Assembly: GCF_000443165.1 (NCBI RefSeq) | Contig: NZ_ATJV01000053.1 | Span: forward strand, 1-59,133 | Length of the DNA stretch: 59,133 nt | Direction: 5' to 3' | Origin: Thauera terpenica 58Eu | GTDB lineage: Bacteria; Pseudomonadota; Gammaproteobacteria; Burkholderiales; Rhodocyclaceae | Shown: positions 1 to 58,997 of the stretch, in pieces | How positions within the stretch are numbered: the first letter of the stretch is position 1 | How the letters are laid out: every line of letters begins with the position of its first letter | Translations under genes and position numbers: made by a program | The notes under the pieces: model-generated | Database searches by the model: none | Told to the model about the DNA's origin: nothing | What the model saw: the letters and a program-made list of their open reading frames with translations, nothing else

Positions 1-73
1 GGACGGGGGAAAGGGGCGAATCATGCCAAAATCTCAGAATCTAGGCCATTGTTATATAAGCGTTTGTTAATAG
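1..73 (-). other. Probable attC site of the left-most cassette, cut by window edge
   Basis: Read on the minus strand, the SIR2-like gene's stop codon runs into TTAACAAACGC and then TATAACAATGG, both resembling the R''-spacer start of attC sites. The matching right arm would lie left of base 1, so the hairpin cannot be verified. Which of the two motifs is the true start is unclear. Confidence 0.45.
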
Positions 74-738: not shown

Positions 739-783
739 TTTCTTTCCTTCTTATAGAGTTGTACCGAAGCTTGCAACCAGAGC

Positions 784-883
784 GTTATAACGCCTGAGCT
801 CAGGTGCGTTTGAGGAGACGCCTGCTTTTGCGACAGCAAAAGTGGGTGGCGGGTCAAACGTCACCTGCAGCGATTTGTTGGGC
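784..883 (-). other. attC recombination site
   Basis: In cassette orientation the site opens with GCCCAAC (matches RYYYAAC) and closes with GCGTTATAA. The arms CAGGTG-A-CGTTTGA and TCAAACGCACCTG pair with one extra unpaired A, the extrahelical base expected in folded attC strands. An inner hairpin CTTTTGC/GCAAAAG lies between them. The site follows the stop of the 900-2516 gene and precedes the SIR2-like cassette. Confidence 0.85.
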
Positions 884-899
884 GGCAGCTTCACCTCGC

Positions 900-2516
900 T
901 TACCTACCGGGCAGAGGGAGGTGTTTACCGCAGTGACCTATTAATACGCGCCTTGATGCTTGGTCGACCTCAAAATGCACGCGAATAGTAGATTTTGGAT
1001 CATCCGCGACGCCGACCTTTAGATGCTTAAGCATTTCGACCTCCCGCCCATCAAAATCAAACTTGCGATAGGCCGAATATTGTTTGTTGTTGGCAACCGT
1101 ATCGGATTCTCTCGCGGCAAATTCATTATTAGTAAAAGTCGCACGGGCGTCAGTGTCCCCCCCTTTGAGATAGGCGGGTAGATATTCGGTTACTAGCCGG
1201 TTCAACATGTCCAAGAGCCGCCGATTTTGGGCAAACGAACCGACCTCCCTTGCGCTTTCCACGGCAGAAGGCAGAACTACGAGACGTTTTGGGTACACCT
1301 TAGCAAGTAAACTCAAGCACTCCTCAGGGCTTGGACCTTTCGAGTCGGCCGCGACCTCGATTAAGTCTCTGACGATTTCCTCATCTTCAGGCAAATCTAC
1401 CGCGACTTCGCTTCTCTGGCTGTTGATGTATGCGCTTTGCTTGATCTGTTTTTCGAGGTCTTGAACTTTCTCCTCACTTTCCAGCAACGTGAACTCCAAG
1501 CTCTCTTTTTGTTGCTGTGCTTGATCGAGGTCAGCACTGAGTTGGGATAGTTCTTCGTAGACCATCCCGAGTTCATCTCGTAACGCATCATCTGGTTTTT
1601 CAGCCAAGTCGGCGATACGTCTTTCAAGCCTCAACTTAGCCGACAGATTTCTTACGCCCTCGGGCCTTATTCGGTTTCGTTGCCTTGGGATATTGGTGTT
1701 GTGACTGACGCGCCCCAAGATGAAGCACTCTATTTTATGTGGAGTATCTAACTCGGCGGGAATGTCTCTGGGTAGGATTCTGTAAGCAAAAACCCTGCCA
1801 TCTCTGTGCGGCACGCGAATGATATTGACCGCACCTGACCATGCAGAGTATTCGCGGCCAAGAACCTCCGCCATGTCGTAGCTGTTGAAATCTTTGGTGG
1901 CACCGACAACCTGTGCCAAGCCAAACAACATGTTTTGCAGCCTTTGCGGATCAACGGTGTACCTACCGTCATTGTCGGGGCTAACAATTACCAGCGGGTA
2001 ATTACGCGATGAATTGTTAATGTCCGCCAAGAGGCCACGGTACGAATCCAAGCCGTCCCCCACCCACTTTACGGCCGATCCGATACTGCCAGGTGAGAAT
2101 TGAACGTTTGGCTCATCTTGCACGTTCGAAAAAATGAACTTTACAACGCGAGGTCGGCTCGCCTGAACGGGGTCGGAAACGAGAATGCTTTGCTCTTCCG
2201 TATAAACGACGCACGAGAAATGGGCTGGTCCACCATCTTCGTCTTTCAGTCCAAGTTCCGTAACCCACTGCCTACCTGTGACGTTCGGGTCAGAATGCTT
2301 AAGCACCCACGAATACAGCCTGAAGTTATCCGCAATTGCTCTATCCGTCCTCAAATAAGCTTTTGGAGTTCCGCCTGTACGTTCTCCGGGAATTGTTATG
2401 TCTCGAATGACTACGCGTTCCCCCAATTTTTCAGATAACCAGCCTGATATGCCTCGGAGCACTTGAAGCGCTGGATTTTCCCCAACCAGCTCAATTTCAT
2501 TTGCGTAAACAAGCAC
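900..2516 (-). CDS. Large cassette-encoded coiled-coil protein of unknown function
   Basis: A 538-aa protein that I do not recognise as a named family. Residues about 1-290 look globular. About 295-365 is rich in Glu/Gln/Leu/Lys heptads and should form a coiled coil. The last roughly 50 residues contain the pattern RVHFEVD then IGHCGKHLP, which from memory resembles a small C-terminal domain recurring in conflict-system proteins; that link is tentative. There is no signal peptide or membrane segment. It sits alone in a cassette of about 1.8 kb, long for an integron cassette, with attC sites on both sides. The region 2517-2596 upstream is its leader and contains no gene. Function cannot be assigned. 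Confidence 0.7.
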   Translation of the reverse strand: MLVYANEIELVGENPALQVLRGISGWLSEKLGERVVIRDITIPGERTGGTPKAYLRTDRAIADNFRLYSWVLKHSDPNVTGRQWVTELGLKDEDGGPAHFSCVVYTEEQSILVSDPVQASRPRVVKFIFSNVQDEPNVQFSPGSIGSAVKWVGDGLDSYRGLLADINNSSRNYPLVIVSPDNDGRYTVDPQRLQNMLFGLAQVVGATKDFNSYDMAEVLGREYSAWSGAVNIIRVPHRDGRVFAYRILPRDIPAELDTPHKIECFILGRVSHNTNIPRQRNRIRPEGVRNLSAKLRLERRIADLAEKPDDALRDELGMVYEELSQLSADLDQAQQQKESLEFTLLESEEKVQDLEKQIKQSAYINSQRSEVAVDLPEDEEIVRDLIEVAADSKGPSPEECLSLLAKVYPKRLVVLPSAVESAREVGSFAQNRRLLDMLNRLVTEYLPAYLKGGDTDARATFTNNEFAARESDTVANNKQYSAYRKFDFDGREVEMLKHLKVGVADDPKSTIRVHFEVDQASRRVLIGHCGKHLPLPGR

Positions 2517-2596
2517 AATAAATCCCCCATGTTCCCCGTTCGATCAGTAGCTGGTTGTATCAAGCTCGGTACGTTCTAGCACTCGCTGTCTCTGCC

Positions 2597-2673
2597 GCTC
2601 AACGTTTGGTTAAGGGGCCGGCTTTAGCCGGTCCCGAGTGAGCGAAGCGAGCGACTTGAACCACTTGTTAGGT
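2597..2673 (-). other. attC recombination site
   Basis: Minus-strand reading starts ACCTAACAAGTGG and ends at GTTGAGC, which fits the GTTRRRY core. GGTT-C-AAG pairs with CTTAACC, leaving one bulged C, and GGG-A-CCGGCT pairs with AGCCGGCCC, leaving a bulged A. This is the usual imperfect attC hairpin. It separates the cold-shock cassette gene from the coiled-coil cassette. Confidence 0.85.
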
Positions 2674-2678
2674 TTAGC

Positions 2679-3350
2679 TTACACAAACCATGTGACTGCA
2701 CCGACGACACAAATGATCGGAACGGACGCAATAACCAAAAATAGACCAAGGCAACCTGAATTGGATGATGAATAAGAGCTCCGGCTTTCTTGTTGCTCTT
2801 TAGGTTGTTCGCGCAGCCATGCCTGGTGACAGGATTTGCAATATAGCCTATTCAGTCCTCTATTCCAGGCAAGGACTGTTCTCTCGTCGTGACTGGAGAC
2901 CGCTCGGCACTTTGAGCATGAGAACAGTTTGTTTGCAGGCTGCTTCTTTCTGCTTGATATGAAGAAAATAACTAGTAGAAAAATTGCGCCAGGCACCAAG
3001 GCTGACTCTGGTGCGCCTGTTTTTATGAATAGACCTAATGAGATAGCAAGAAGTACAGCCAGAGCAAAGTAAGCAAAATAATCTAGCCCATCTTTCTTGA
3101 CGGGCTCTGTGATTATTCTTTTAGAGCTCCCTGAGTTGGAAAGTGATACACCTTCAAGCAGCACGTGCGTTGCTTTGAGGCGACCTTGGGAGTCTTTGGC
3201 AACTTCAAAAATGACGGCGTCACCAACTTCAGGCTTGCGAGTTGCCTTTTTGACGCTTGAGATGTGGAAGAAAACCTGTTCGTTTTTACCTTCAGGACTG
3301 ATGAAGCCGAAGCCTTTATCATCCTTCCATGAAACTATTTTTCCTTTCAT
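2679..3350 (-). CDS. Cold-shock-domain membrane protein with zinc ribbon (cassette gene)
   Basis: The protein of about 223 aa begins with a cold-shock domain: residues 1-67 contain DKGFGFI and VFFHIS, the RNP1/RNP2-type nucleic-acid-binding strands. Two membrane segments follow at about 92-130, then a CSKC ... CKSC zinc ribbon at about 143-175, a Ser-rich linker, and a final hydrophobic segment at the C-terminus. I chose ATG at 3350 because the longer frame from 3398 would begin inside the neighbouring attC site and adds no domain. Cold-shock domains fused to membrane segments occur in bacteria, but an added zinc ribbon is less familiar. RNA or single-stranded DNA binding at the inner membrane is an inference. 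Confidence 0.75.
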   Translation of the reverse strand: MKGKIVSWKDDKGFGFISPEGKNEQVFFHISSVKKATRKPEVGDAVIFEVAKDSQGRLKATHVLLEGVSLSNSGSSKRIITEPVKKDGLDYFAYFALAVLLAISLGLFIKTGAPESALVPGAIFLLVIFFISSRKKQPANKLFSCSKCRAVSSHDERTVLAWNRGLNRLYCKSCHQAWLREQPKEQQESRSSYSSSNSGCLGLFLVIASVPIICVVGAVTWFV

Positions 3351-3379
3351 TCTTGTGGAACTCTCATTTTTAACAGCGT

Positions 3380-3451
3380 ACCTAACGACCAAGCTCACTG
3401 GCGGCTATGGAGCGTAGCGGAATAGCCGTCCAGTGCAGCGCCTTGTTATAT
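3380..3451 (-). other. attC recombination site
   Basis: Minus-strand TATAACAAGGC opens the site and GTTAGGT (GTTRRRY) closes it. CACTGG-A-CGGCTAT pairs with ATAGCCGCCAGTG, giving a long stem with one extrahelical A and a small loop. It directly follows the stop codon of the 3453-3965 gene. Confidence 0.9.
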
Positions 3452-3452
3452 T

Positions 3453-3965
3453 TTAACTGTATGCAGCAAGATAAGCGTCAGAGAATCTACGCCAAATTGG
3501 CTGAAGGTTTTCAAAATCCAATTTCCCATTGGATATTCCGCCTTTCATACTGCCCAACTGGACTTCGTCCGTAAGCACCTCGCTCTGGTTCTGCCAATGA
3601 TCTTTAAGGTGTTTAGGCTTCTTTGGCGTGGGATACCGACCATCCCAAATAATATACTCTGCCAAAATATTGAATAGAGATTCTTCCTCATCTGTTATTG
3701 ATAGGCCTGCTGTCGCAGCGAGATCAACAAGCTTGTGATTTTTGCTAAATTCAGTTTTTCGAGCAACACAATGAGCCTTGAAAATCAGCTCGAATGACAT
3801 TCCAATCAACATTTTATAGGTTGCCCAGCAATTCACCTCAAGATTACGGTTTTCTTGCATTGCAACCCATAGGGTTCTAGCGGACACCAACAGATCATGC
3901 GACTTACTGTGCCAATATGCAGAGGTGCCTTGCCGCAATTCAAATTGCTTTTCATATGCATCCAT
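3453..3965 (-). CDS. HEPN-like hypothetical protein (cassette gene)
   Basis: A 170-aa, largely helical protein. The stretch from residue about 50 to 90, with FELIFKAH, ARKTEF, KNHKLVDL and a following short helix, resembles HEPN-type four-helix proteins, in which an Arg and His form an RNase or nucleotide-binding site. The strict Rx4-6H spacing is not clearly present, so catalytic activity is doubtful. It lies 6 bp downstream of the SHOCT membrane gene with no attC between, so the two probably travel and are expressed as one cassette. It could be an unrelated helical protein. Confidence 0.55.
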   Translation of the reverse strand: MDAYEKQFELRQGTSAYWHSKSHDLLVSARTLWVAMQENRNLEVNCWATYKMLIGMSFELIFKAHCVARKTEFSKNHKLVDLAATAGLSITDEEESLFNILAEYIIWDGRYPTPKKPKHLKDHWQNQSEVLTDEVQLGSMKGGISNGKLDFENLQPIWRRFSDAYLAAYS

Positions 3966-3971
3966 AAATCG

Positions 3972-4556
3972 TCATGCCCGCTTTAGAAGTTTTCTCCTAG
4001 CCTCGTTAAACTCCTCCTCTGATATATGACCATCTTCCTTAAGCTTTGCCCATTTAATAAGCTCATCTGCAACGGAGTATTGTTTGAGCTTTTCTCCCTT
4101 TATGATATCCACCTCACCTAAAGCCACTGTATTCGATGGGTTTTTAGGTTTAGTTGCAAAAATTCCGTTGACTTCGATCCATTCGCTATGGTTAGAAAGT
4201 GGATTGATAAAGAGATGTTTCACAAAAACCAAATATGCTATACAAATTCCAGCGAACACTAGAGAAATGATCAGCTCTTCGCCCAGACGATCCCATCGGT
4301 CTTCTGCATTCAAAGTGGTTGCGCAGTAAGCTGCAGAGATAATGCAACCCACCAAAATGAGAGAGACATATCCACGAAAGTTTCTAGTTGCTGTGGTTAC
4401 ATGGGAAAAATCTTCATTCTTTTTCATCATGAATATCCCAAATGCTAAAAATAAAGTGGGAATTACCCCTACAAGAAACCCTATAGATGGAAGCATAAGC
4501 AATCCAAATATTAATATTTTACTTTGGTCGCTGCTGTTTAATGGTTGATTGCTCAC
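3972..4556 (-). CDS. Membrane protein with C-terminal SHOCT domain (first cassette gene)
   Basis: A 194-aa protein starting at GTG 4556 with AAAGGA about 8 bp upstream. Hydrophobic segments at about 14-43, 62-80 and 92-112 suggest three or four membrane helices. The last about 32 residues ([17 protein letters not shown] then [11 protein letters not shown]) fit the SHOCT domain, a short helical module found at ends of many bacterial membrane proteins. It is the cassette gene closest to attI, hence the one best placed to be transcribed from an integron promoter. The following HEPN-like gene shares its cassette. Cellular role unknown. Confidence 0.75.
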
Positions 4557-4570
4557 ACAATATCCTTTGG

Positions 4571-4690
4571 AATATAACGTGTTTTAGCCCGCAGTTCTGC
4601 GGGGTTGTGCGGAACCCTGCGGTATATCCGGTCGAAACCCGCAAGACGAAGTGCTTGATGTCAATCGCATTTCAGAGTTATTCTGTATTT
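4571..4690 (-). other. Integron attI region and divergent promoter region
   Basis: The stretch between the first cassette gene and intI contains a minus-strand GTTATAT at 4572-4578 that could be the attI core where cassette DNA begins. A perfect 7-bp inverted repeat, CCCGCAG/CTGCGGG, lies at 4588-4603 and may be an integrase- or regulator-binding structure. For intI, TTGATG (4655-4660) and TTATTC (4678-4683) are spaced 17 bp. That would start RNA close to the ATG at 4691, so a leaderless message is possible; no Shine-Dalgarno is seen. Confidence 0.6.
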
Positions 4691-4698
4691 ATGTACAG
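4683..4698 (+). promoter_or_regulatory. LexA (SOS) box overlapping intI start codon
   Basis: CTGTATTTATGTACAG is a full CTGT-N8-ACAG LexA site, very close to the E. coli consensus. It abuts the candidate -10 and contains the ATG at 4691. LexA control of integron integrases is established for class 1 and Vibrio integrons. Its presence here implies that integrase expression rises after DNA damage. Confidence 0.88.
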
Positions 4699-5716
4699 CC
4701 CTAACCCAGCCGGCAAACCCCGCAGCCCTCGGAGCGAACCACCCGCCCCGCCGCTGACGGCTGTGCGGCTGCTCGACCAGGTACGGGAGCGAATTCGGTA
4801 CAAGCATTACAGTTTGCGGACTGAGCAGCAATACGTTTATTGGGTACGTGCGTTCGTCCGCTTCCACGCGCTGCGCCACCCTCGCGAGATGGGCGCACCC
4901 GAGGTAGAGCAGTTCCTGAGTTGGCTCGCCGTGGAGCGCAAGGTGGCGGTGTCCACTCACAAGCAGGCGCTGGCCGCGTTGCTGTTTCTCTATCGTAGCG
5001 TCCTGGGCGTCGATCTGCCTTGGCTGTCGCAATTCGAGCGCCCGAAGACGCCGGTTCGTCTTCCGACGGTGCTGTCCCGCGAAGAAGTCAGCGCGCTACT
5101 GAACGCGATCGAGGGTCCGGTGGGCGATCTCGCTGGTCTGGTGTATGGGACAGGGATGCGCCTGATGGAAGCGCTGCGCCTGCGCGTCAAGGATGTCGAC
5201 TTCCAGCGCAGACTGATCGTGGTGCGCGAGGGCAAGGGCAACAAAGATCGCGTGGTGATGTTGCCCGACCGTTGCGAGAATGCCCTGCGCGAACAACTGC
5301 GACGAGCGCATCTGCTGTGGGCGCAGGATCGTGCGGACGGGGTTCCGGGGGTGGAGATGTCGGAGTCGCTCATGCGCAAGTATCCGCGCGCAGCCGAGTC
5401 CTGGCCCTGGTTCTGGGTGTGGCCCTCGCCCACCTTGTCGGTCGATCCGCGCTCGGGCGTGCGCAGACGCCATCATCTATATGAAGAGCGCTTGCAGCGG
5501 GCGCTGCGTCAAGCGGTCCAGAAGGCCGGCATCGCGCGTCATGTCACGGTCCACACGCTGCGCCACTCGTTCGCCACGCACTTGCTCGAGGGTGGTTACG
5601 ATATCCGCACCGTGCAGGAACTGCTCGGCCATGCCGATGTTTCGACCACGATGATCTACACGCATGTACTCAACCGCGGTGGCCGAGGCGTTGTGTCCCC
5701 ATTCGACCGACTATGA
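4691..5716 (+). CDS. intI: Integron integrase IntI (tyrosine recombinase)
   Basis: A 341-aa site-specific recombinase that captures and excises attC-bounded cassettes. The N-terminal SAM-like domain is followed by the catalytic domain with the first Arg in [10 protein letters not shown], the HTLRHSFAT box, and the nucleophile Tyr in TMIYTHV. The region around [20 protein letters not shown] is the extra patch that distinguishes integron integrases from other XerC/D-like recombinases, and the C-terminus [14 protein letters not shown] is also typical. The frame stays open back to 4541, but family members begin near 4691. Cassettes lie on the opposite strand as expected. Catalytic residues appear intact. 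Confidence 0.96.
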
Positions 5717-6931: not shown

Positions 6932-9040
6932 ATGAACGCTACCGTCGCCAATCCCTTGCTCGACTTTTCGGGCATGCCGCGCTTTGCCGATATCAAGCCG
7001 GAACACGTCGAACCCGCCATCCGCGGCCTGATCGACGAGAACCGCGCCCTCATCGAACGCCTCACCGCCGAAACCGCCACGCCGACCTGGGACGACTTCG
7101 TCAGCCCGATGGATGAGGCCGGCGAACGCCTCGGTCGCGCCTGGGGCGTGGTCGGCCATCTGCACAGCGTGTTCGACGTGCCCGAATGGCGCGAGGCCTA
7201 CAACGCCATGCTGCCCGACATCTCGCGCTTCTTTGCCGAAGTGGGACAGAACCTGGCGCTGTTCGAGAAGTACAAGGCGCTGCACGACAGCGCGGAATTC
7301 GCCACCCTGTCGCCGGTGCGCCAGCGCATCCTCGAGCACGCCCTGCGCGACTTCCGCCTGTCCGGCGCCGAACTGGCCGACGAACTCAAGCCGCGCTTCC
7401 AGGCCATCCAGGAAGAACAATCGCAGCTCGCCGCCAAGTTCTCCGAGAACCTGCTCGACGCCACCAACGCCCACGCCGAGTGGGTCAGCGATGAGGCCGG
7501 GCTGGCCGGCATCCCTGAGGATGCGCGCGCAGCCGCACGCGAAGCGGCCCAAGCCGAGGCCAAGCCGGGCTGGAAGTTCACCCTGCAGATGCCGTCCTAC
7601 CTGCCGGTGCTGCAATACGCCGACGACCGCGAGCTGCGCGCACGCATGTACCGCGCCAACGCCACCCGCGCTTCCGAGCTCGGCAATCCGGAGCTCGACA
7701 ACGGCCCGCTGATCGGCCGCATCCTCGCCCTGCGTCATGAAGAGGCGCGCATGCTCGGCTACCGCAACTACGCCGAAGTGTCGCTGGTGCCCAAGATGGC
7801 CGACACGCCCGAGCAGGTGCTGGGCTTCCTGCACGATCTCGCCGCCAAGGCCAAGCCCTTTGCCGAGAAGGATCTGGAAGAGCTGCAGGCTTTCGCCAAG
7901 GCGGAGCTCGGCATCGACCGCCTCGAGCCCTGGGATCTGGGCTACGCCTCCGAAAAACTGCGCCAGGCGCGCTACGCCTACTCTGACCAGGAGGTGAAGC
8001 AGTACTTCCCCGAGCCCAAGGTGCTCGACGGCCTGTTCGGGGTGATCCGCGCACTGTACGGCGTTGACATCCTGCCCGACGAGGCGCCGAAGTGGGACCC
8101 GGACGTGCGCTTCTTTCGCATCGAGAAGGATGGTGAAAGGGGCAACGAACTCGTCGGCCACTTCTACCTCGACCTGCACGCGCGCAGCACCAAGCGCGGC
8201 GGCGCGTGGATGGATTCGGCCCGCAGCCGCCATCGCAACACCTGGGGCAGCGACAGCCCGGTGGCCTATCTGGTGTGCAACTTCCCCGGACCGGTGGGTG
8301 GCAAACCCGCCACCTTCACCCACGACGACGTGCTCACGCTGTTCCACGAGTGCGGCCACGGCCTGCATCACCTGCTCACCAAGGTGGATGAGCTCGCGGT
8401 CTCCGGCATCCACGGCGTGGAATGGGACGCGGTCGAGCTGCCCAGCCAGTTCATGGAAAACTTCTGCTGGGAATGGGACGTGCTGCAAGGCATGACCGCC
8501 CATGTCGACACCGGCGCGCCGCTGCCGCGTGCGCTGTACGACAAGATGATCGCCGCCAAGAACTTCCAGAGCGGCATGCAGACCGTGCGCCAGCTCGAGT
8601 TCTCGATGTTCGACCTGCGCCTGCACGGCGAGTTGGGCGCCAGCGCAGATGAAAGCGGGGATGCCGGCGCGGCGCCGGTGCCGATCGAACGCGTGATGGC
8701 CGTGCTCGACGAAGTGCGCAAGGAAGTGGCGGTGATGATTCCGCCCGCCTGGCACCGTTTCCCGCACAGCTTCGCGCACATCTTTGCCGGCGGCTACGCG
8801 GCGGGTTACTACAGCTACAAGTGGGCAGAAGTGCTGTCCGCCGACGCCTTCGAAGCTTTCGAAGAAGCCGGCGCCGGCCGCGGCAGCCTGCTCGACCCCG
8901 AAACCGGCGCGCGCTTCTGGCGCGAGATCCTCGCCGTCGGCGGCAGCCGCCCGGCACTGGAATCCTTCAAGGCCTTCCGCGGCCGCGAACCGAGGCCGGA
9001 CGCACTGCTGCGTCACAGCGGGATGGTGGCGCAGGAATGA
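6932..9040 (+). CDS. prlC: Oligopeptidase A (M3 zinc metallopeptidase)
   Basis: A 702-aa cytoplasmic peptidase that degrades short peptides, including cleaved signal peptides. The thimet-oligopeptidase catalytic motif is visible as TLFHECGHGLHH, giving the HExxH zinc site, with the third ligand expected in the VEWDAVELPSQFMENF segment. Length fits E. coli PrlC (about 680 aa). The ATG at 6932 follows an AAGAGAG Shine-Dalgarno. It stands alone, about 110 bp after purC and 70 bp before the fic-like gene. Confidence 0.95.
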   Translation: MNATVANPLLDFSGMPRFADIKPEHVEPAIRGLIDENRALIERLTAETATPTWDDFVSPMDEAGERLGRAWGVVGHLHSVFDVPEWREAYNAMLPDISRFFAEVGQNLALFEKYKALHDSAEFATLSPVRQRILEHALRDFRLSGAELADELKPRFQAIQEEQSQLAAKFSENLLDATNAHAEWVSDEAGLAGIPEDARAAAREAAQAEAKPGWKFTLQMPSYLPVLQYADDRELRARMYRANATRASELGNPELDNGPLIGRILALRHEEARMLGYRNYAEVSLVPKMADTPEQVLGFLHDLAAKAKPFAEKDLEELQAFAKAELGIDRLEPWDLGYASEKLRQARYAYSDQEVKQYFPEPKVLDGLFGVIRALYGVDILPDEAPKWDPDVRFFRIEKDGERGNELVGHFYLDLHARSTKRGGAWMDSARSRHRNTWGSDSPVAYLVCNFPGPVGGKPATFTHDDVLTLFHECGHGLHHLLTKVDELAVSGIHGVEWDAVELPSQFMENFCWEWDVLQGMTAHVDTGAPLPRALYDKMIAAKNFQSGMQTVRQLEFSMFDLRLHGELGASADESGDAGAAPVPIERVMAVLDEVRKEVAVMIPPAWHRFPHSFAHIFAGGYAAGYYSYKWAEVLSADAFEAFEEAGAGRGSLLDPETGARFWREILAVGGSRPALESFKAFRGREPRPDALLRHSGMVAQE

Positions 9041-9051
9041 AAATCAGTCTT

Positions 9052-9098
9052 TTGACAAAGCACAATAGTAGTGCAATCATTAAGCACGATATTAGTGC
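9052..9098 (+). promoter_or_regulatory. Promoter with two tandem palindromic operators for the Fic-family gene
   Basis: A perfect -35 TTGACA sits at 9052-9057. Two near-identical palindromes, GCACAATAGTAGTGC (9060-9074) and GCACGATATTAGTGC (9084-9098), both GCAC-N7-GTGC, lie 24 bp apart centre to centre. That places them on the same face of DNA over the spacer and start region. The -10 is weak (around 9075-9084). The arrangement suggests repression by the winged-helix N-terminus of the gene product itself or another dimeric repressor. Confidence 0.65.
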
Positions 9099-9110
9099 GA
9101 TGATGCTGAG

Positions 9111-10676
9111 ATGGCCACTCCCAACGAGAAGCTTGCCGCATCGCTGGAAGAGCTCAAGACGCTTCAATACAAAGGGCTGCGCGTCATTCGCAGCGCAGCC
9201 CTGTCGCGCACGCACCGCGAGCGTCTGAGCAGGGCGGGCTATCTGCAGGAGGTCATCAAAGGCTGGTATTTGCCCGCCCGACCGGAAGTATCCAGCGCCA
9301 GTCTCGAAGGCAGCACAGCCGCCTGGTTCGCCGGCATGCGCGACTTTGTCGCCGGCTACTGCGAGGACCGGTTCGGCGAAAGCTGGCACCTGAGCCCGGA
9401 CCAATCCCTGCTGCTGCGCTCCGGTGAGCGCAGCTTGCCACGGCAACTGCAGGTCTGGTCTAGCGCCGGTAATAACCAGTTGGTGTCCTTGCCCCACGCT
9501 TGCTCCTTGTTTATCTACCGGGCACCCGCACTGCTGCCCGCCGAACCGCATGCCGAAGATCAAGGCATCCGCCTCGTAACGCTGGCGGCTGCGCTCACGG
9601 CCGTGTCAGCAGCTTTCTTTATTCAGCAGCCACTGGCTGCGCGCGTGGCACTGGGGATGGTCGACGACACCGCAGAGCTGTTGCAACGCTTGCTCGACGG
9701 CTCCCACTCCGTCATCGCCGGACGGCTGGCGGCTGCGTTTCGGGCGGTAGGCCGTGCTGACTTCGCAAACAACATCACCCAAACCATGCGCAGTGCCGGC
9801 TACACGGTTCAGGAGGTTTCACCGTTCGACCTGCCACCGCTGCTGCTGCGTGCTGGCCAAGCCGTGTCACCCCACGTGCAACGCCTGCGCCTGAACTGGG
9901 CGGCGATGCGCGACGCTGTCATCGCCGCATTCCCGCCACCCAAGCCCCCACCGACCGACCCGATGCAAGCCCTCCGGGACATCGAGGAGCGCTACCTGGC
10001 GGACGCCTACCACTCGTTGTCGATCGAGGGTTACCACGTAAGCGCGGATCTGATCGAGAAAGTGCGCAACGGCGTCTGGGATTCGGAAGGCCCTGACCGC
10101 CAGCAGCGCGACGCCATGGCCGCCAAGGGCTATTTCGAGGCCTACAAGCTCGTGCGGGATTTCATCCTCAAAACGATGCGAGAACCAGCACAAGCGGTCG
10201 CGCCACAGAGTTTACGCGAGGCGATGAACACCTGGTATCTGGCGCTATTCAGCCCCAGCGTGCAAGCTGGCCTGCTCAAACCTTCGGATCTCGCCGGCTG
10301 GCGCAACAGCCAGGTGTTGATCCGCGGTGCGCTGCACGTGCCACCGGCCAAGGAAGCTGTGCGCGAAGCCATGCCCGTACTGTTCGAACTCATCGAAAGC
10401 GAGCCACACCCCGCTGCACGGGCCATTCTTGGGCACTTCCTGTTCGTCTTCATTCACCCTTACATGGATGGCAATGGTCGCCTGGCGCGTTTCTTGATGA
10501 ACGCAATGCTCGTCACCGGTGGCTATGTGTGGACCGTCATTCCAGTGCAGCAGCGACAGACCTATATGGAGGTGCTGGAGCAAGCCAGTTCCTACGGCGA
10601 GATCGAACCGTTCGCAAGATTTGTCGCCCAACTGACGCGTGATCAGCTCTCAAGCCCCCTGCCGCGACCAAGCTGA
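9111..10676 (+). CDS. Fic-family protein with N-terminal AbiEi-like winged helix
   Basis: A 521-aa protein. The Fic AMP-transferase core carries HPYMDGNGRLAR at about residues 448-459, matching HxFx(D/E)GNGRxxR with Tyr replacing Phe. The auto-inhibitory motif (S/T)xxxE(G/N) is present as SLSIEG near residue 305, so activity is probably self-restrained. Residues about 5-60 (YKGLRVIRSAALSRTHRERL, GYLQEVIKGWYL) resemble the winged helix of AbiEi-type antitoxins, suggesting DNA binding and autoregulation through the two operators just upstream. The target protein is unknown. It is a single-gene unit between prlC and xthA, so if toxic it is likely controlled in cis. Confidence 0.85.
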   Translation: MATPNEKLAASLEELKTLQYKGLRVIRSAALSRTHRERLSRAGYLQEVIKGWYLPARPEVSSASLEGSTAAWFAGMRDFVAGYCEDRFGESWHLSPDQSLLLRSGERSLPRQLQVWSSAGNNQLVSLPHACSLFIYRAPALLPAEPHAEDQGIRLVTLAAALTAVSAAFFIQQPLAARVALGMVDDTAELLQRLLDGSHSVIAGRLAAAFRAVGRADFANNITQTMRSAGYTVQEVSPFDLPPLLLRAGQAVSPHVQRLRLNWAAMRDAVIAAFPPPKPPPTDPMQALRDIEERYLADAYHSLSIEGYHVSADLIEKVRNGVWDSEGPDRQQRDAMAAKGYFEAYKLVRDFILKTMREPAQAVAPQSLREAMNTWYLALFSPSVQAGLLKPSDLAGWRNSQVLIRGALHVPPAKEAVREAMPVLFELIESEPHPAARAILGHFLFVFIHPYMDGNGRLARFLMNAMLVTGGYVWTVIPVQQRQTYMEVLEQASSYGEIEPFARFVAQLTRDQLSSPLPRPS

Positions 10677-52317: not shown

Positions 52318-55300
52318 TCATGTCCGCGACAGCGGCAATTCTTTGAATTCTTCGCCAAGGAACCGAAACTTGTGACGGAAAAGTCCAGCGAGCTTGGTAT
52401 CCGCGGTCGCAAAGAAGATCTGTCGAGACCCATTGATCGCCAAGTGGCGCAGATGGTCCAGGAACGACAGGACGTTGATGTCATCCACGTGTGCAACCGG
52501 ATCGTCGAAGAGCAATACTGGCGGGCCGGAGCGAAGGCGGCCGTTCATCGCCAGGAAAAGTGAAAGTGCAAAGGCGGCCCGCTGTCCGGTGCTCATTTGA
52601 TCGAGTTCCACCTTGCCGCCCGACTTGCGGCGGACGATAGCCAGGGCGCCACCGTCGACCTTCAGTTCAAACTCATTGGGCATGTGTATGCTAGCGAACG
52701 TGCGCGCAATCTCCTGCGCGTTCTCGGCAAGAATCTGGTTGGTCAGTTCTCCGCCTGAGCTTTGTTGCGTCAAGGAAATCAGAACGCCCTCGGCATCCAC
52801 CAGCCGCGTAATCTTCGTAGCGCACACCGTGATCTTGTCAACATGCTCTGCGACTGCCTTGGATTCCTTCTCGAGTGCTGCATCGTTCGACCCTTCCTGT
52901 GCGATGGCAGTAGCGACCCTTGCCACAAGCTGCTGGGTCATGGAAAGATCAACCGCAAGTTCGTTGGCGGTCATATTTGCGCCGATCGCCATCATCGACG
53001 CGAGCGCTTGCCGAGCGCTGAGCGCGGCTTCCACGTTGGAGACCTGCTTTTGAGCCGCCTTCGCGAGCGCGTCGGCACCGTCGGGAAGCTCGATCGATAG
53101 CCGTTCGGCCAAATCTTCGCATTCCCGCTCGATATCAGCCGATTCCTGCAGGGCGTTCCTAGACGCTTCTTGAGAAATCGAAAGCGCTTTCTTGTGCTCC
53201 GCTTGCGCAAGGTGCAAATCATCGAGCGATGGCAGCTCAGCCAGTCCCGCTGCTAGCAACCTGTTGGAGAGATCTTCTGCAGAGAGGCCATCGGCCTGCA
53301 ACTGCTGGATCTGCCTCTGTACCGTCTCAAGGCTTGCCCGTTCGCGGTCTAGCAGTGCTTTCTCCTGATCGATCTGTGCGAGCGCTTCACGAACTACTGT
53401 CGATCGAGTGCCGTCACCCAGGAATGCCCGAATAGGATCGAGTGCCGACTGGGCCGAATGGACAACGACCAGTTCCTCCTCTGCCCGCGCAATTTCCGTT
53501 TGGAGCAGCGCCGCCTGCGATGACGTGTTGCTGTCGACCTCGGACATCATCCGGATGAGCAACTGACCGCTCTCGAACTCCGTGTGGCAAATCGGGCAGT
53601 GGTCGGGATTTGGGACGCGCTGCAAGATGTCTTGGGCTGTCGCACGCAGGCGCTGCATGAGCACCGTCAGGCTGCTCTGGGTTCTCTCTAAGCGCTGAAG
53701 AGACGCTCGGGCTGCGGTTGCCTGACGTTGAAGCTCCTGCGCGCGCGCCCGGACTGACGAAAGGGCTACCTCGACGCTCTGGTCCAGCAGGTGCTCCGCG
53801 ACGTTCGCGCACCTGTCGCTGGCTACGGGCGCTAGTTTTGCCGCTCGTGTGCGGAAGCTGTCTTGCCTCTCCCGCACTTGCTTGGCCAACTGCGCAAAAT
53901 CCGTGCGCCCGTATGGCAACAGCGCCTCGACCGCAGCGATACGGTCCGCCGCCGTCTGCGTGGCGCGCTGGGCCTTGGATTGCTCCAGTCTGGCAGCCTT
54001 GGCGCGTGCATCCAACGCCGAGGCCTTGCTGGCCTCCTCGTTCAGGTTCGCCAAGAGCTGCAGCGCGCTTTGCGGATCGCTATGCAGGACATCGACTGAC
54101 GAATGACGAAGTAGTTCTGTTGCTGAGACCGCCTCTTGCAACATCTCGCGCAAGGCAGCGATACCGCCTTTGTCTTCCGGGGGCTGTAGCCATCCCAGCC
54201 GCTTCACAGCGGCAAGCAATTCCAGGAAGAGACTGTCGGAGAGCTTCGGCGCATTCTTGATGGTATCGACACGTGCAGAAGCCGCCGCCTTCAGTTGCTG
54301 ACAGGTCTCGCTCTCGCGGCGTAGCCCCTTCAACTCGTCGCGCACTTGTTCCATCACCCGTCGAAGGCGATCGGCCAGGTGCTCAGCAGCCGCTCCGAGC
54401 ACAAGACGCGTGACGTCGGCGCCGATCTGATCCGAACTCGCCGATACGCTGAGATTGACAGCAGCATCGGTATCAAGAAAGTTAAACTTACCGAAGCTGT
54501 CCTGAATACTGACCTTCTTGAGTTCGGTCTTCGCATACCAGTTCGAGTGGCGCGCTCGCAGTCGCGCCGCATCAGCCGTGGAGCAGAGCTTCTCTGCTGT
54601 GCCACCCAACTCCAAGGTCACAGCGGTCGGGTCTAGCAAGACGGAGGAACGTCGGTTTCGTCCGCAGTAGGCAAACTCAATCGCTTCGAGTAGCGAGGTC
54701 TTTCCCACGCCGTTGCTGCCGACAATGAGATTGACACGCCCCAAAGGGTGGTCCTTCTGCTCAGGCTGGGGCCGAAATCCCTTGATGGTCAGCCGTTTCA
54801 GAAAGTGGCCGGCCGCCGCCTTTTCTGCCGGCAGTAGCGCCATCGGAGAGACCGGCCTTGCGGCCTTGTCCTTTGAGCCAGCAACGATACGACGAACAGC
54901 GTCGGGTACCGAGATTTCGTCGTCCAAAATGAAACCTAGCCCGTGCTGCTCTAGCGTTTGCGACCAAGTGGTCGCCAGATCCGCTGGCAGTGCGCCAGCG
55001 GGCGCGGCCGGGCTACCCTTTCCAAGAAGGGTGGGTACATCGCCTTCCCGTACCACCTGTTTGCGGGCGTATTCGCGATCAGCCTCAACTATGGCTTTCA
55101 ATCGGCCAAACTCCCCGCGCGCGGCCTCTTCGTCGCTCGTGACGAAATAGAGGTAGTGGCTCCATCGCAGATCCGTGGCGACCTGTGTGGAGAAGTACAT
55201 CGGCGAAAGCACTTCTTCTTGATAGCGCTTGAGAGATGCAGCCGTTGTCGCCAACCGATCGTTCAGATCGAAGTAGCGGATTGCATACTCGCGCGCGCCG

Positions 55301-55395
55301 AAACGATCGACCCCGCGGAATACCCCGGGGCTCACGTCTTCGAGATCCGGGTATCGACCCCTGAGGATCGCTTCCACCTGCTGGGCATTGATCAT
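52318..55395 (-). CDS. Rad50/SMC-like ATPase of a two-gene candidate conflict system
   Basis: A 1025-aa protein. Residues 1-135 form an N-terminal domain outside the ATPase (YAIRYFDLNDRL, LRWSHYLYFV, VEADREYARKQVV), which I link tentatively to middle components of ABC-three-component systems. The ATPase starts about residue 205: FLKRLTIKGFRP, Walker A GSNGVGKTSLLEAIEF, a long helical middle with a CPIC zinc-hook motif near residue 598 (PDHCPICHTEF), and at the end signature STGQRAAFALSLFL, Walker B PVLLFDDPVAHVDD and a switch-like FFATAD. It overlaps the nitrilase-like gene by 4 bp. Likely senses or processes DNA ends; the partner's activity is the likely effector. Defence role is inferred. 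Confidence 0.85.
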   Translation of the reverse strand: MINAQQVEAILRGRYPDLEDVSPGVFRGVDRFGAREYAIRYFDLNDRLATTAASLKRYQEEVLSPMYFSTQVATDLRWSHYLYFVTSDEEAARGEFGRLKAIVEADREYARKQVVREGDVPTLLGKGSPAAPAGALPADLATTWSQTLEQHGLGFILDDEISVPDAVRRIVAGSKDKAARPVSPMALLPAEKAAAGHFLKRLTIKGFRPQPEQKDHPLGRVNLIVGSNGVGKTSLLEAIEFAYCGRNRRSSVLLDPTAVTLELGGTAEKLCSTADAARLRARHSNWYAKTELKKVSIQDSFGKFNFLDTDAAVNLSVSASSDQIGADVTRLVLGAAAEHLADRLRRVMEQVRDELKGLRRESETCQQLKAAASARVDTIKNAPKLSDSLFLELLAAVKRLGWLQPPEDKGGIAALREMLQEAVSATELLRHSSVDVLHSDPQSALQLLANLNEEASKASALDARAKAARLEQSKAQRATQTAADRIAAVEALLPYGRTDFAQLAKQVRERQDSFRTRAAKLAPVASDRCANVAEHLLDQSVEVALSSVRARAQELQRQATAARASLQRLERTQSSLTVLMQRLRATAQDILQRVPNPDHCPICHTEFESGQLLIRMMSEVDSNTSSQAALLQTEIARAEEELVVVHSAQSALDPIRAFLGDGTRSTVVREALAQIDQEKALLDRERASLETVQRQIQQLQADGLSAEDLSNRLLAAGLAELPSLDDLHLAQAEHKKALSISQEASRNALQESADIERECEDLAERLSIELPDGADALAKAAQKQVSNVEAALSARQALASMMAIGANMTANELAVDLSMTQQLVARVATAIAQEGSNDAALEKESKAVAEHVDKITVCATKITRLVDAEGVLISLTQQSSGGELTNQILAENAQEIARTFASIHMPNEFELKVDGGALAIVRRKSGGKVELDQMSTGQRAAFALSLFLAMNGRLRSGPPVLLFDDPVAHVDDINVLSFLDHLRHLAINGSRQIFFATADTKLAGLFRHKFRFLGEEFKELPLSRT

Positions 55396-57212
55396 GACCT
55401 ATCTTCCGCGAAATCCACCGGCGAAGCGCCGGCGGGAATGTCGATAAGATTCATACCTTGCGGCCCGCGAGCGCCATAGTCGTTATCTCTCCGAAAGACA
55501 ACGCACAGCCGATCCTGCGCACGAACGATCGCATCCGTGAGCTCGTCGCCGTACTTGCCCTGCCTGATGGCGACACTGAGCGCATGGTCTACTAGGGCCT
55601 TAGTGAGCTTCTGGTGAATGACATCGACCTCCGCATCGTCAGCCTGATCAGCCAGATATACGAGCGCGGCCGATCCGCGCCCTCCTGCGGACGGCTCTAC
55701 GTTGTGGTGCGGCGCCTCCCGGCGCCATGCAAAGCGGAAGCCGTCAGCCAGATCCCGCACAGGCGCGGGCCATGGCACAGGATTCTGAGTCAGTCTGATC
55801 GCGTCATGTGCGCGCTGCAGTCGCCTTCTGCGAAAGGCGACGCCCGGTCTCGTAGGTTCGATCTCCTGATGGACCGTCACCCTTCGAATCGATTCCTCGT
55901 CCCTATCCAGTTGGAACGCATCGAGCTCGTTGACTGCGTACCACGTCGTTGGATTACCACGAGGGCCAACAAGAATTTCTATGGCTCGCTCTACGGCAAG
56001 TGGGCTTGCTTGCGCTGTCTGCTGCAGCGGACCTGCAATGGCCTGATAGCTGGCCAGTGCGACCGCGAATCCGTCGTGGGCAATCGCGCCGGCTTCCCAG
56101 GCGTCCATGGCTGAGTTCCATGTCCAGCGCTCTTCGACCGCGACAAAGCTCTTTGGCACGATGGCTTGCTCGCCTGCAAAGAGCAGCTTCTGCTTTTGCA
56201 GTTGAAGGATCTGACCTTCGTAGTTCAGGAAGAAGGAATGCCATCGTTGTGCCAACACGCTGTAGTAAAGCCCTCGTCGGTGCAGTTCGTCGATCAAGCC
56301 ATCGTCCGCGCCGAACTTCGCTGGCGGCGCATACCAAGCGGACCCGGCGACGTTCTCCCAGTCGGCAACCTTACCACCGCCCTTCACCTCCTTGACGTTC
56401 TGGGCCCAGTTCAAACACAGCAGTTCGACATGGCTGCTGGTGCCGACGGCACACAGCCGCGCACGATAAGCAGCATAGTCGGCGTGAGCAGGCTTCGGAT
56501 TGAGCTGGATGTGGATGAGCAAGCAGTTGAGGTGAGCCTGATCGACGTGGCTGGAAAAATCGAAAGCATCTGAACAGATGATCGACAACAGACTCATTTT
56601 GCCGGCGCCACGATTGAATGCGTATACAGCCTGCCCGACGCACAGCGAAGTTTGCTCAATATCGCGGTAATCCCTGCACGCGACGGTCTTGAACTGCGCA
56701 AGTAGAAACAGCACCTTTTGCCCACTGGCGTCTTGGGCCCAGAAAACGTAGAGCAATGTGTCCACGTAGCGCCGTTGCGCCACCTGCCGCGGGTCGAGCA
56801 GCTCGTGGTAAAACACGCACTCATTCCCTGCGTTGCAGCGCTCAGCCAGTGACTGGATTTCCACCGGTGGGATGCTCTCACAACCGAGAACCCAGAGAGC
56901 GCCTACCGGCGGGCGATGTTGTCCCGCAATAATTTCGTCTACGACTGTCCAGGGCGTGCAGTATTCAGGCGCAACCACCAAATCTGCGTGAGCTTGAACT
57001 GCAGCGGAGAGAAAGCCGCTGCAAAGAGCGTGACCGATCCTCGCGTCCGCGTGGCCGACCCGCACGTCATTTGCCTCGATGACGCCTGAGGGCTGCAGCA
57101 GAAGGGCACGATAGGGTTCCCGCGCGGGATTGAGCGCCTGCAGCGTAGCGAGCGTAAGCGGGCGCGGACGCTGAGCCAAGACATCCTCAACGTCAACAAT
57201 TGTGATTGCCAC
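55392..57212 (-). CDS. Nitrilase-superfamily protein of the two-gene candidate conflict system
   Basis: A 606-aa protein starting at GTG 57212 with an excellent GGAGGAG Shine-Dalgarno 8 bp upstream; the open frame to 57350 is unlikely to be translated. Residues about 30-300 fit a carbon-nitrogen hydrolase: Glu in ADLVVAPEYCTP, Lys in FLLAQFKTVACRDY and nucleophile Cys in LLSIICSDAFDFS, the classic E-K-C triad. About 300 further residues have no recognised fold and end in an acidic tail. Nitrilase domains serve as effectors or accessory domains in some anti-phage reverse-transcriptase systems. The substrate is unknown. The ATPase gene is translationally coupled behind it. Confidence 0.78.
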   Translation of the reverse strand: MAITIVDVEDVLAQRPRPLTLATLQALNPAREPYRALLLQPSGVIEANDVRVGHADARIGHALCSGFLSAAVQAHADLVVAPEYCTPWTVVDEIIAGQHRPPVGALWVLGCESIPPVEIQSLAERCNAGNECVFYHELLDPRQVAQRRYVDTLLYVFWAQDASGQKVLFLLAQFKTVACRDYRDIEQTSLCVGQAVYAFNRGAGKMSLLSIICSDAFDFSSHVDQAHLNCLLIHIQLNPKPAHADYAAYRARLCAVGTSSHVELLCLNWAQNVKEVKGGGKVADWENVAGSAWYAPPAKFGADDGLIDELHRRGLYYSVLAQRWHSFFLNYEGQILQLQKQKLLFAGEQAIVPKSFVAVEERWTWNSAMDAWEAGAIAHDGFAVALASYQAIAGPLQQTAQASPLAVERAIEILVGPRGNPTTWYAVNELDAFQLDRDEESIRRVTVHQEIEPTRPGVAFRRRRLQRAHDAIRLTQNPVPWPAPVRDLADGFRFAWRREAPHHNVEPSAGGRGSAALVYLADQADDAEVDVIHQKLTKALVDHALSVAIRQGKYGDELTDAIVRAQDRLCVVFRRDNDYGARGPQGMNLIDIPAGASPVDFAEDRS

Positions 57213-57815
57213 TGAGCCTCTCCTCCAGCAGATGGCGTTAGCGTACCGCTGGGTGAGGTTTGCATCCCAGCAGCGACTTACGCCTCTTGTTTCGTTGGTC
57301 GTTCGCAGTGTAACGATTCGGTCGAGCGTACTCGATTCAACTTCGAGCATTGCTCCCGTTGCAGGAGGGAAAATTATCTGATTTGTCGCGCCAGATGAAG
57401 GAGACGGAAAGACCCTAGCCTAATGGTCACCATTCGAGTCGGTTGGGCAAGGGCGCCGCTGACTGGCAGTCCAGTTGCGAGACAGGTAGCAACGAGTTGC
57501 GAGTTCTGGATAACGACTGGTCTCGCCGCCCGCCGACACTCGGCCGCCAAACTTGAACGACCGCAGTTAGTCTCCTCCCGACGCTCGATCGGCGACCTTG
57601 AACGACAGGTCATGGCCGATTGGGTGAGGTCACCAACGGCCGCTTTGTAGAGTTCCAGTTCGCTGAGACGGGATTTGGCTGAGCGGGCGCTCAGGAGCGA
57701 GCTGACTGGCCGGATTGGGTCGGATCCAGCCGTTCCTTCCCCGCGGGACCTTCCAGGCTTCCATCGCGCTGTGCGAGACATTGGACAGTCGACGCCGTTT
57801 CGTCCAAAGCGCGTA
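57213..57815. other. Gene-free region upstream of the ATPase/nitrilase operon
   Basis: About 600 bp with no supported gene in any frame. It must contain the operon promoter reading leftward, but no clear -35/-10 pair stands out. It resembles degenerate intergenic island DNA. Confidence 0.4.
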
Positions 57816-58088
57816 TTACAACGCCCCCGGTCTCGGGGACTTTGAGCTCAGGCATAGCTCATCCTGCTCCGTGCCAGGTTTGAGTACGCCCGAGTGCATC
57901 AGAAAGTCCGTGATGCTCTTGACATTCGTCCCGGGCGGAACCTCCTGAAGTCTGTACTCCCCGAGATGCGCCGCAATGGCGCGTCGGATCAGCATCTCGG
58001 GCGTGATGCCCAACTCGGCGGCCCTCGCCTCGATGTGCTCCGGCGTCGTCTCATTGTCCGAGAACGAGACAGTGAAGACTTTTGTCAT
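57816..58088 (-). CDS. Small ribbon-helix-helix-like orphan protein
   Basis: A 90-aa protein from ATG 58088, preceded by GGAGAGGG. The first 45 residues (TKVFTVSFSD, IEARAAELGITPEMLIRRAI) look like a strand followed by two helices, similar to CopG/Arc-type DNA-binding or antitoxin proteins, with a charged, flexible tail. No obvious toxin partner lies beside it. It reads divergent from the DUF4926 gene and toward the ATPase/nitrilase operon; a link is not shown. Confidence 0.6.
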   Translation of the reverse strand: MTKVFTVSFSDNETTPEHIEARAAELGITPEMLIRRAIAAHLGEYRLQEVPPGTNVKSITDFLMHSGVLKPGTEQDELCLSSKSPRPGAL

Positions 58089-58371
58089 GATTGCCCTCTC
58101 CGTGAGTCCCGAATCAGTTTCGCTTCGAAGCAAACGACGATCAGCGGATTCGATCCAGGCCAAGCCTACCCCCTCTCCTGTCCTGCTACCCCCTCGTCAC
58201 AATCACCGACTGCGAGCTTCACGCCAGGCGAAACGGCGCGCTCGCGCGCAAGCACTGGTACGCTGATGCAGAGGATGTGTCCACTCGCATACTGGAAGCA
58301 CGATTCACCTTTTCCGATAGCGATAGGGCGCAGCCAAGCCAAGCAGCAGTACCACGTGAAGGAGTCATGAG

Positions 58372-58679: not shown

Positions 58680-58997
58680 ATGTCGGAGCGCAGCGAGTTC
58701 TGGTTGTCGCACCTGTCGGCGATTGAAGCCGAGGGCATCACCACCAAGGCGTATGCCGAGCGTGAGGGATTGTCGGCGCAAGCCCTCTATCAGTGGCGCA
58801 AGCGCAGGGTGGCCGAGGCTCGCTCCAGTCGCACCCCGCTCGGGGGGTTTGCTGCGATCCAGGTCGAGCCCTCGATAGCAGCCCGCGCTGGCTGCACGGT
58901 GGTGATTGATTCCGGGTTGCGGCTCGAGTGTGCCGCGCTGCCCAGCGTCGACTGGCTGGCCACCTTATCGGCAGCACTGCGCGAGCGGGGACGTTGA
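58680..58997 (+). CDS. tnpA: IS66 accessory protein TnpA
   Basis: A 105-aa protein with an N-terminal helix-turn-helix (EAEGITTKAYAEREGLSAQA, LYQWRKRR), typical of IS66 TnpA. ATG follows GGGAGCACGAGC. The stop overlaps the tnpB ATG (TGATG), so translation is coupled. Confidence 0.9.
   Translation: MSERSEFWLSHLSAIEAEGITTKAYAEREGLSAQALYQWRKRRVAEARSSRTPLGGFAAIQVEPSIAARAGCTVVIDSGLRLECAALPSVDWLATLSAALRERGR

Follow-up and report, generated by a model that had tools for sequence, protein, structure and literature searches.

A nitrilase-like protein and a Rad50-like ATPase form a gene pair best read as a deep variant of two-gene Lamassu

Two long genes in the 59,133-nucleotide stretch of Thauera terpenica 58Eu DNA analyzed here (the window) raise the question of whether they form an immune module and, if so, whether this module belongs to a known system. 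The original prediction described a Rad50/SMC-like ATPase gene and a nitrilase-superfamily gene overlapping by 4 bp. Both open reading frames were found in place, joined by an ATGA overlap on the minus strand with the effector gene first (Table 1). The GTG start at 57212 is preceded 7 nt by a GGAGGAG stretch, as read by eye; promoter and terminator scans gave no signal exceeding that of shuffled sequences. Compared with the related locus L011, purifying selection was found on the nitrilase gene (dN 0.057, dS 0.33) and on the ATPase gene (dN 0.063, dS 0.31).

Table 1. Positions of the gene pair and its sequence features in the window.
Feature	Position	Strand	Basis or remark
LmuA-like effector, 606 aa	55392..57212	-	putative divergent nitrilase (C-N hydrolase) domain ~30–340 plus C-terminal part
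LmuB-like Rad50/SMC ATPase, 1025 aa	52318..55395	-	profile matches
GGAGGAG, ribosome-binding-like stretch	57220..57226	-	by eye
Glu83 of PE motif, proposed general base	56964..56966	-	alignment
Lys175 (QFK motif)	56688..56690	-	alignment
Glu186, possible second nitrilase glutamate	56655..56657	-	invariant in 30/30
Cys213 (ICSD motif), proposed nucleophile	56574..56576	-	alignment
ATPase N-terminal extra domain, residues 1–195	54811..55395	-	profile, weak evidence
Walker A GSNGVGKTS, residues 226–234	54694..54720	-	motif, alignment
CPIC zinc-hook-like motif, residues 600–603	53587..53598	-	Cys, Pro, Cys invariant in 23 aligned ATPases
ABC signature STGQR, residues 935–939	52579..52593	-	motif, alignment
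Walker B LLFDDP, residues 961–966	52498..52515	-	motif, alignment

The 606-aa protein of the window had no match in Pfam, PADLOC 2.0.0 or NCBIfam 20.0, and a genome carrying the pair would therefore be scored without its effector. Glu83, Lys175 and Cys213, i.e., the nitrilase triad that had been predicted, were invariant in all 30 aligned nitrilase-like proteins. Kinship with the superfamily rose above background when a profile of genuine C-N hydrolases was run against 148 proteins: the top seven ranks were taken by seven of the eight family members, five of them clear of the rest (27.0–35.7) and two (21.9 and 20.7) close to the best other protein (19.4), with the eighth member at rank 21. In the profile alignment with genuine C-N hydrolases, Glu and Cys were in register and Lys was one column off. 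Pfam CN_hydrolase was matched by 2 of the 30 members, with a best value of 0.0064 that is not significant alone. The family profile gave only a weak, 37-column match (probability 11.8) to a profile of all 27 C-N hydrolase reference domains, which were left from 30 slices after dropping three with an internal stop; with the 16 amidase-like domains alone the match covered 132 columns (probability 26.8, P 6.8e-4). Four PDB chains were found with the nitrilase profile at E up to 10 (1.4–1.9, not significant), all of them nitrilase-superfamily proteins aligned at the PE motif. Comparisons of both the nitrilase and the C-N hydrolase profiles with the 148 proteins argue against a chance assignment, and support that the 606-aa protein contains a divergent nitrilase-superfamily domain with a conserved triad.

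In the ATPase, the predicted Walker A, signature, Walker B and CPIC motifs were all located, and HVDD (969–972) comes after Walker B. The ATPase alignment comprised 23 of the 30 pairs, because the starts of seven clade-B ATPases (L017, L020–L023, L025, L026) are unsettled and these were omitted. Cys600 and Cys603 were kept in 23 of 23 sequences. The place of the catalytic Glu in Walker B was occupied by Asp in 16 of them and by Glu in seven, with no Gln found.

The neighborhood survey proposed with the original prediction showed conserved pairing, with both genes side by side at 29 of 30 related loci, each of which had been located by way of the nitrilase. A genome scan of a collection of 84,980 species yielded at least 26 relatives of the nitrilase. 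Here, the ATPase adjoins it in the same order and on the same strand at 25 of 26 loci, and the remaining locus without ATPase is a 100-residue nitrilase relic. On plasmids the genes were adjacent at four of four loci, three of them haloarchaeal; a plasmid search by tblastn with the ATPase at 1e-10 returned the same four records as three nitrilase searches combined, so from this side, too, a nitrilase abuts in four of four. Carriers are Proteobacteria, a Holophagae MAG and Halobacteria, and among 369 genomes of the class only the window's own has the pair. Searches of phage records and of viral contigs yielded no relatives. Across 23 pairs, nitrilase and ATPase identity matrices are in agreement, with a Mantel r of 0.98 that none of 5000 permutations reached, in a comparison dominated by three clades. 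With up to four ORFs of at least 110 aa considered on each side, no third gene was common to more than three of the 29 loci, and therefore the two genes seem to suffice as a unit.

Enrichment of defense genes near the pair, for which the survey was also meant, was not shown. At 1e-15, the 112 neighbors (the two nearest on each side at 29 loci, out of 214 picked) matched 112 PADLOC families, compared with 102 for 110 control proteins (two long proteins of 112 were omitted). We cannot claim enrichment from these numbers because the tally counts families matched (the first 25 listed) and not proteins, and because the control stretches happened to contain Hma, Septu and DISARM-like genes.

The pair had been thought to lack a named counterpart. 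This did not hold, since the genome of the window also has a PADLOC two-gene Lamassu, LmuA PDLC03850 with LmuB PDLC03861 (G000:C66:542-5942), whose LmuA can be aligned with the window nitrilase over the catalytic part, and since a 2023 review, in its available text, includes C-N hydrolase among the LmuA effector domains (PMC10586767); we hence dismissed the view that the pair is without precedent. Like the window pair, the PDLC03850/PDLC03861 pair consists of two overlapping genes with the effector first. The alignment of LmuA PDLC03850 with the nitrilase family profile spans 246 columns and keeps Glu, Lys and Cys in register, but this LmuA has Asn at the place of Glu186. When the nitrilase profile was run against the 148 proteins, the eight family members were followed by two PDLC03850 LmuA ORFs scoring 57.5 and 52.5, and the best of the 138 others reached 25.7. 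In the reverse direction, the PDLC03850 model does not recognize the window effector; of eight family nitrilases scanned, one reached it at 0.001, i.e., L011 at 2.2e-4 over matching coordinates. With the C-N hydrolase profile, LmuA PDLC03850 of this genome scored 18.7 (rank 10 of 148, not above background), and a sequence search of the PDB gave it no relative, the one chain returned having an E of 0.27.

On the ATPase side, all 23 aligned proteins matched the PADLOC LmuB models PDLC03859 and PDLC03865 at 1e-10 or better, which bears out the predicted Lamassu-like character. In the PADLOC run the window ATPase matched PDLC03859 at 4.1e-37, compared with 1e-50 or better for clear LmuB proteins in other genomes. 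Within its own genome it was the best match to this model (3.4e-34), ahead of SbcC-looking (1.1e-17) and SMC-looking (3.3e-8) proteins. At 1e-5 PDLC03859 found matches in 14 of 14 control genomes; at 1e-50 none of the 14 matched, but the window ATPase was also missed. LmuB PDLC03861 resembles the window ATPase in its Walker B DDP, in a C-x2-C motif and probably in a related N-terminal domain, but is longer (1207 versus 1025 aa) and alignable by BLAST at the heads only (37% in a stretch of 120 C-terminal residues and 42% in one of 48 around Walker A). With the ATPase N-terminal profile, two PDLC03861 LmuB ORFs ranked first outside the family, barely (24.0 and 23.7 versus 21.1), and Trp78 and Glu104 are shared with them. 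On this weak evidence, the PADLOC-type LmuB encoded in the genome of the window possibly has the extra domain as well. Among the 369 class genomes the N-terminal profile matched only the two ATPases of the window's genome, the second being itself a profile row, and therefore no other partner was seen.

LmuB is described in the available text of PMC10586767 as a protein of about 650 aa in which a Walker B Glu to Gln exchange is general. The window ATPase is longer and its family lacks this Gln. However, of four proteins matching LmuB models, those of PDLC03861 and PDLC03865 have Asp at this place and the two of PDLC03859 have Gln and Thr, respectively; we therefore do not treat a Walker B without Gln as excluding Lamassu. 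Likewise, the lack of an LmuC, with no ORF of at least 110 aa common to the 29 loci, does not exclude it, because this small middle component is absent from some Lamassu systems and two-gene Lamassu exist (PMC12409362, available text). The same text describes an original two-gene Lamassu type I, with which the pair, compared by description and not by sequence, shares the layout and the LmuB-like ATPase. ABC-3C or Lamassu type II (DdmABC with a Cap4 effector), as described there, likewise joins an SMC-like ATPase to an effector, but comprises three genes, one of them for a small middle component, and its effector is a nuclease and not a nitrilase. Nitrilase likeness is also shared with DRT systems, where RT-nitrilase fusions are given for unknown RT classes 1 and 5 (PMC8934634, available text): five family nitrilases matched the DRT model PDLC03804 (0.037 to 8.5e-4) within residues 155–222. 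The window nitrilase is instead paired with a Rad50-like ATPase; neither window protein had a Pfam reverse transcriptase match, nor do the loci have a third gene in common. Taken together, these comparisons are best read as pointing to a deep variant of two-gene Lamassu for which PADLOC, NCBIfam and Pfam have no model.

A separate, unnamed two-component defense that merely looks like Lamassu, its nitrilase effector having been combined with a Rad50-type sensor independently of LmuA/LmuB, appears unlikely to us. It would agree with an effector covered by no library model, with the single family nitrilase in eight that reaches PDLC03850, with the absent Lamassu Gln and with a tree of ATPase heads (31 rows) that did not resolve the deep branching, where the target group needs 3 changes and branches extend up to 10 changes per column. 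Against it stand the PDLC03850 LmuA scores far above background and, barely, the ranking of the PDLC03861 LmuB ORFs together with the shared Trp78 and Glu104.

The ATPase has ABC heads and a CPxC hook in common with Rad50/SbcC, Rad50 ATPases are its nearest solved structures by profile, and an AddAB-like nuclease and helicase flank three haloarchaeal loci. It differs from Rad50/SbcC in its extra N-terminal domain and the Walker B Asp of bacterial members. One may think of a module akin to SbcCD/Rad50-Mre11 that repairs DNA or maintains the genome, with the nitrilase as an accessory enzyme. We hold this to be quite improbable: the neighbor of the ATPase is a nitrilase instead of the phosphoesterase Mre11/SbcD, and the nitrilase is the abutting gene in all 29 pairs, which were found via the nitrilase. 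Moreover, the spread is patchy, with plasmid carriage and variable neighbors, and from this distribution a housekeeping Rad50 was thought unlikely. Very improbable, in our view, is a toxin-antitoxin-like addiction pair in which the ATPase holds a toxic nitrilase for plasmid upkeep and not for immunity, even with four copies on plasmids and a nitrilase without ATPase seen just as one relic. A 1025-aa ATPase would be an unusually costly antitoxin, nine of the 26 genome-scan contigs exceed 500 kb and therefore many copies may be chromosomal, and the kin system PDLC03850/PDLC03861 is filed as defense.

Returning to the Lamassu variant, we consider it fairly probable that the two genes make up an immune module complete in itself and working like Lamassu, with the ATPase sensing DNA and setting the nitrilase free. 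What was observed is that the genes go together, that residues for catalysis and for ATPase function are conserved, and that there is kinship with the LmuA/LmuB pair and with C-N hydrolases; the Lamassu mechanism described in PMC10586767 and PMC12409362 also speaks for this reading. The LmuB-like ATPase would dimerize via its CPxC hook and monitor the cell for abnormal phage or plasmid DNA, i.e., ends, hairpins or replication intermediates. It would restrain the nitrilase, probably through the C-terminal part of the latter and its own N-terminal extra domain, and could free it upon binding of DNA and ATP. The freed nitrilase may then assemble into an active oligomer, in which Cys213, Glu83 and Lys175 would cleave a C-N bond of some cell component or else carry out an acyl transfer, and the infected cell would stop growing, an abortive outcome.

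A tentative and, taken as a whole, somewhat unlikely extension is that the pair represents a distinct immune lineage, either predating the divergence of the bacteria and haloarchaea that carry it or moved from one domain to the other by plasmids. Its sensor would be Rad50-like, with an N-terminal regulatory domain of its own and a Walker B that is apparently competent for hydrolysis (Asp/Glu, not Gln), and would reversibly control an oligomer-activated nitrilase destroying a C-N-bonded metabolite that is new as an immune target.

Nitrilase domains, as also found in DRT systems, and Rad50-like sensors are both recurring components of immunity, and the pair brings them together. Thirty natural pairs from bacteria and archaea offer material for finding the nitrilase target during cell shutdown, and two related pairs in one genome permit a direct test of partner specificity.

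Around the pair, an island with a broken AbiE pair and two IS families had been predicted. AbiEi is a complete PADLOC match (3–200 of 201), and the second IS family is based on an HTH_Tnp_1 match at 58680–58997 that lies below the cut-off (20.4 of 24.1 bits). The PADLOC match of AbiEii covers just 1–139 of 299, and its ORF ends within an IS3-family transposase gene of the opposite strand.

The two-gene operon of the original prediction was found on the minus strand, where a 606-aa frame is followed by a 1025-aa ATPase frame with a four-base overlap (ATGA). All four motifs ascribed to the ATPase were located, i.e., Walker A, CPIC, an STGQR signature and an LLFDDP Walker B, and both its heads match SMC_N, AAA_21 and similar Pfam families. 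Its N-terminal extra domain of about 195 residues had no Pfam match. The 606-aa protein gave zero matches at E ≤ 1 in Pfam, PADLOC and NCBIfam and, searched alone against the PDB, chance-level matches only (best E 0.66). The broken AbiE pair is likewise present, beyond the 3' end of the operon, with the second AbiE gene ending prematurely at an IS3-family transposase. Upstream of the operon, a small ORF on the same strand (57816–58163) weakly matches a ribbon-helix-helix family (PutA_1st, E 0.018).

Features of the window and the Lamassu pair elsewhere in the same genome
Feature	Location	Strand	Basis or remark
606-aa nitrilase-like protein (first gene)	55392–57212	-	open reading frame
1025-aa Rad50/SMC-like ATPase	52318–55395	-	open reading frame
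597-aa LmuA (PDLC03850, 9e-279) overlapping 1207-aa LmuB (PDLC03861, E 0)	G000:C66:542–5942 (locus L065)		PADLOC
IntI-like tyrosine recombinase	4541–5716	+	by eye
Cassette-like genes	67–4556	- (opposite IntI-like gene)	GC as low as 46%
attC-like site (one)	2597–2673		consensus
SIR2-like ORF	67–738		by eye

Effector and ATPase form a true pair. Scanning 84,980 species, each represented by one genome, for one degenerate peptide pattern (counts are hence a lower bound), we found at least 26 loci in Bordetella, Pseudomonas, Acidovorax, Paracidovorax, Variovorax, Xanthomonas, Rhodanobacter, Pandoraea and others, as well as in one Holophagae MAG and four haloarchaea. Co-occurrence of homologues had been proposed as a check, and the two genes are adjacent, with order and strand kept, in 25 of 26 genome loci. 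The exception, a Pseudoduganella locus (L027, 10001–10300), is a decayed copy, i.e., a 100-residue effector remnant with no ATPase match. By tblastn against 72,556 plasmids, we found the effector in Polaromonas naphthalenivorans pPNAP01 and in three haloarchaeal plasmids (Natrarchaeobaculum, Natronorubrum, strain DL31), adjoined by the ATPase in all four; the ATPase query at 1e-10 returned the same four records and no others. The pPNAP01 copy lies two genes from genes for HamA and a helicase, which carry the annotation of a Hachiman pair. As all genome loci were retrieved via the nitrilase, they show that it accompanies the ATPase; the reverse direction was examined in the plasmids and with a profile of the ATPase N-terminus, whose only matches across 369 class genomes were two ATPases, both encoded in the window's own genome.

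The effector falls into three clades, with identities of 58–88% (window-like), 29–31% (second) and 15–18% (haloarchaeal). Identity matrices of both proteins agree (Mantel r 0.98 over 23 pairs, with the three clades as the dominant contribution), and both genes are under purifying selection. Judged by the assigned start codons, the four-base overlap occurs in 17 of 30 pairs, that of the window included; in the remainder the genes abut, overlap differently or have uncertain starts, and in one locus (L002) the annotated start sits downstream. Within four ORFs per side, no neighbour was common to more than three of 29 loci. Directly downstream of the pair, three haloarchaeal loci (L004, L030, L031) carry two conserved genes of 862 and 953 aa, labelled PD-(D/E)XK nuclease and ATP-dependent DNA helicase in the L004 annotation. 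L003, L004 and L030 have an integrase and a ParA gene in common. In L008 and L009, a 415-aa gene resembling, by eye, Mrr-type restriction enzymes lies directly upstream on the same strand (8540–9787).

The first gene is a predicted nitrilase. Glu83, Lys175, Glu186 and Cys213 are among the residues invariant in 30 bacterial and archaeal proteins. Compared with 16 amidase-like CN hydrolases from related genomes, the family profile aligned over 132 columns (P 6.8e-4); Glu83 and Cys213 line up, Lys175 is displaced by one column, and when all 27 CN hydrolases were used only 37 columns matched. In the reverse test, an amidase-like profile was scored against 148 proteins, drawn from the window and from ten loci. 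Seven of the eight family members took the top seven places, five with a distinct margin over the other proteins, and the eighth member ranked 21st. A PDB profile search returned four chains at non-significant E-values (1.4–1.9), every one of the nitrilase superfamily. Pfam CN_hydrolase was matched by two of 30 members (best 0.0064), and the PADLOC RT-nitrilase model of DRT by five (best 8.5e-4).

Profile comparisons suggest that the window pair is kin to Lamassu. One member (L011) matches the LmuA model PDLC03850 at 2.2e-4, with three of 30 below E 1. Of 299 phylum genomes, two contain PDLC03850, the window's own genome among them. Against this own-genome LmuA, the family profile aligned over 246 columns (probability 85, P 6.4e-6), and Glu83, Lys175 and Cys213 fall on Glu, Lys and Cys. 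Two PDLC03850 ORFs scored 57.5 and 52.5 with this profile, compared with at best 25.7 among 138 others of the 148 proteins. The CN-hydrolase profile alone does not single out this LmuA; the alignment with the window family, together with its own motifs (FPEC, QPKL, LLCFDW, QCNPAPSH), points to a nitrilase here too. The own-genome Lamassu pair adjoins, by eye, TrbJ- and TrbL-like conjugation genes. In genome G655 (L066, 10001–16750), a PDLC03850/PDLC03861 pair is fragmented, and its ATPase stretch contains, on the opposite strand, an ORF that by eye resembles a transposase.

For the ATPase, the window protein and the own-genome PDLC03861 LmuB have similar heads (37% over 120 C-terminal residues, 42% over 48 residues around Walker A), whereas the N-terminal domain is less surely common, with Trp78 and Glu104 in both. 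Two PDLC03861 ORFs were the top non-family scores of the N-terminal profile, yet near background. The window ATPase was the best own-genome match of LmuB model PDLC03859, ahead of SbcC-like and SMC-like proteins; at 1e-5 this model matches in 14 of 14 control genomes, and the window ATPase falls short of 1e-50, the level of clear LmuB. The pair is best read as a probable deep variant of two-gene Lamassu whose effector is a nitrilase, and may, less probably, be a separate lineage.

According to two reviews, LmuB is likely a Rad50-like sensor of DNA structures, and LmuA is an effector whose N-terminal enzymes are diverse and include C-N hydrolase, with a variable C-terminal part for docking; type I has two genes and type II three, and recent preprints reportedly show release of activated LmuA and its assembly into a homotetramer (PMC10586767, PMC12409362). 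The window pair fits with its nitrilase part first, extra C-terminal part and hook-bearing ATPase, but differs in ATPase length and in the absence of Walker B Gln, and lacks a middle component. Vibrio Lamassu is read in a review as hydrolysis-poor; in contrast, window-family ATPases have Asp (16 of 23) or Glu (7) in Walker B, which may leave ATP turnover possible.

We found no report of Lamassu joined with a nitrilase in openly licensed literature and do not claim its absence from print. 'Lamassu-Amidase', a DefenseFinder label, was not found there. Papers that name nitrilase together with phage defence do occur in it, among them PMC8934634, which covers RT classes. Among the openly licensed literature searched, Lamassu and a C-N hydrolase term occur together in PMC10586767 only.

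At the other end of the window, positions 1–5716 look like an integron, with the recombinase, cassette-like genes and attC-like site listed in the table.
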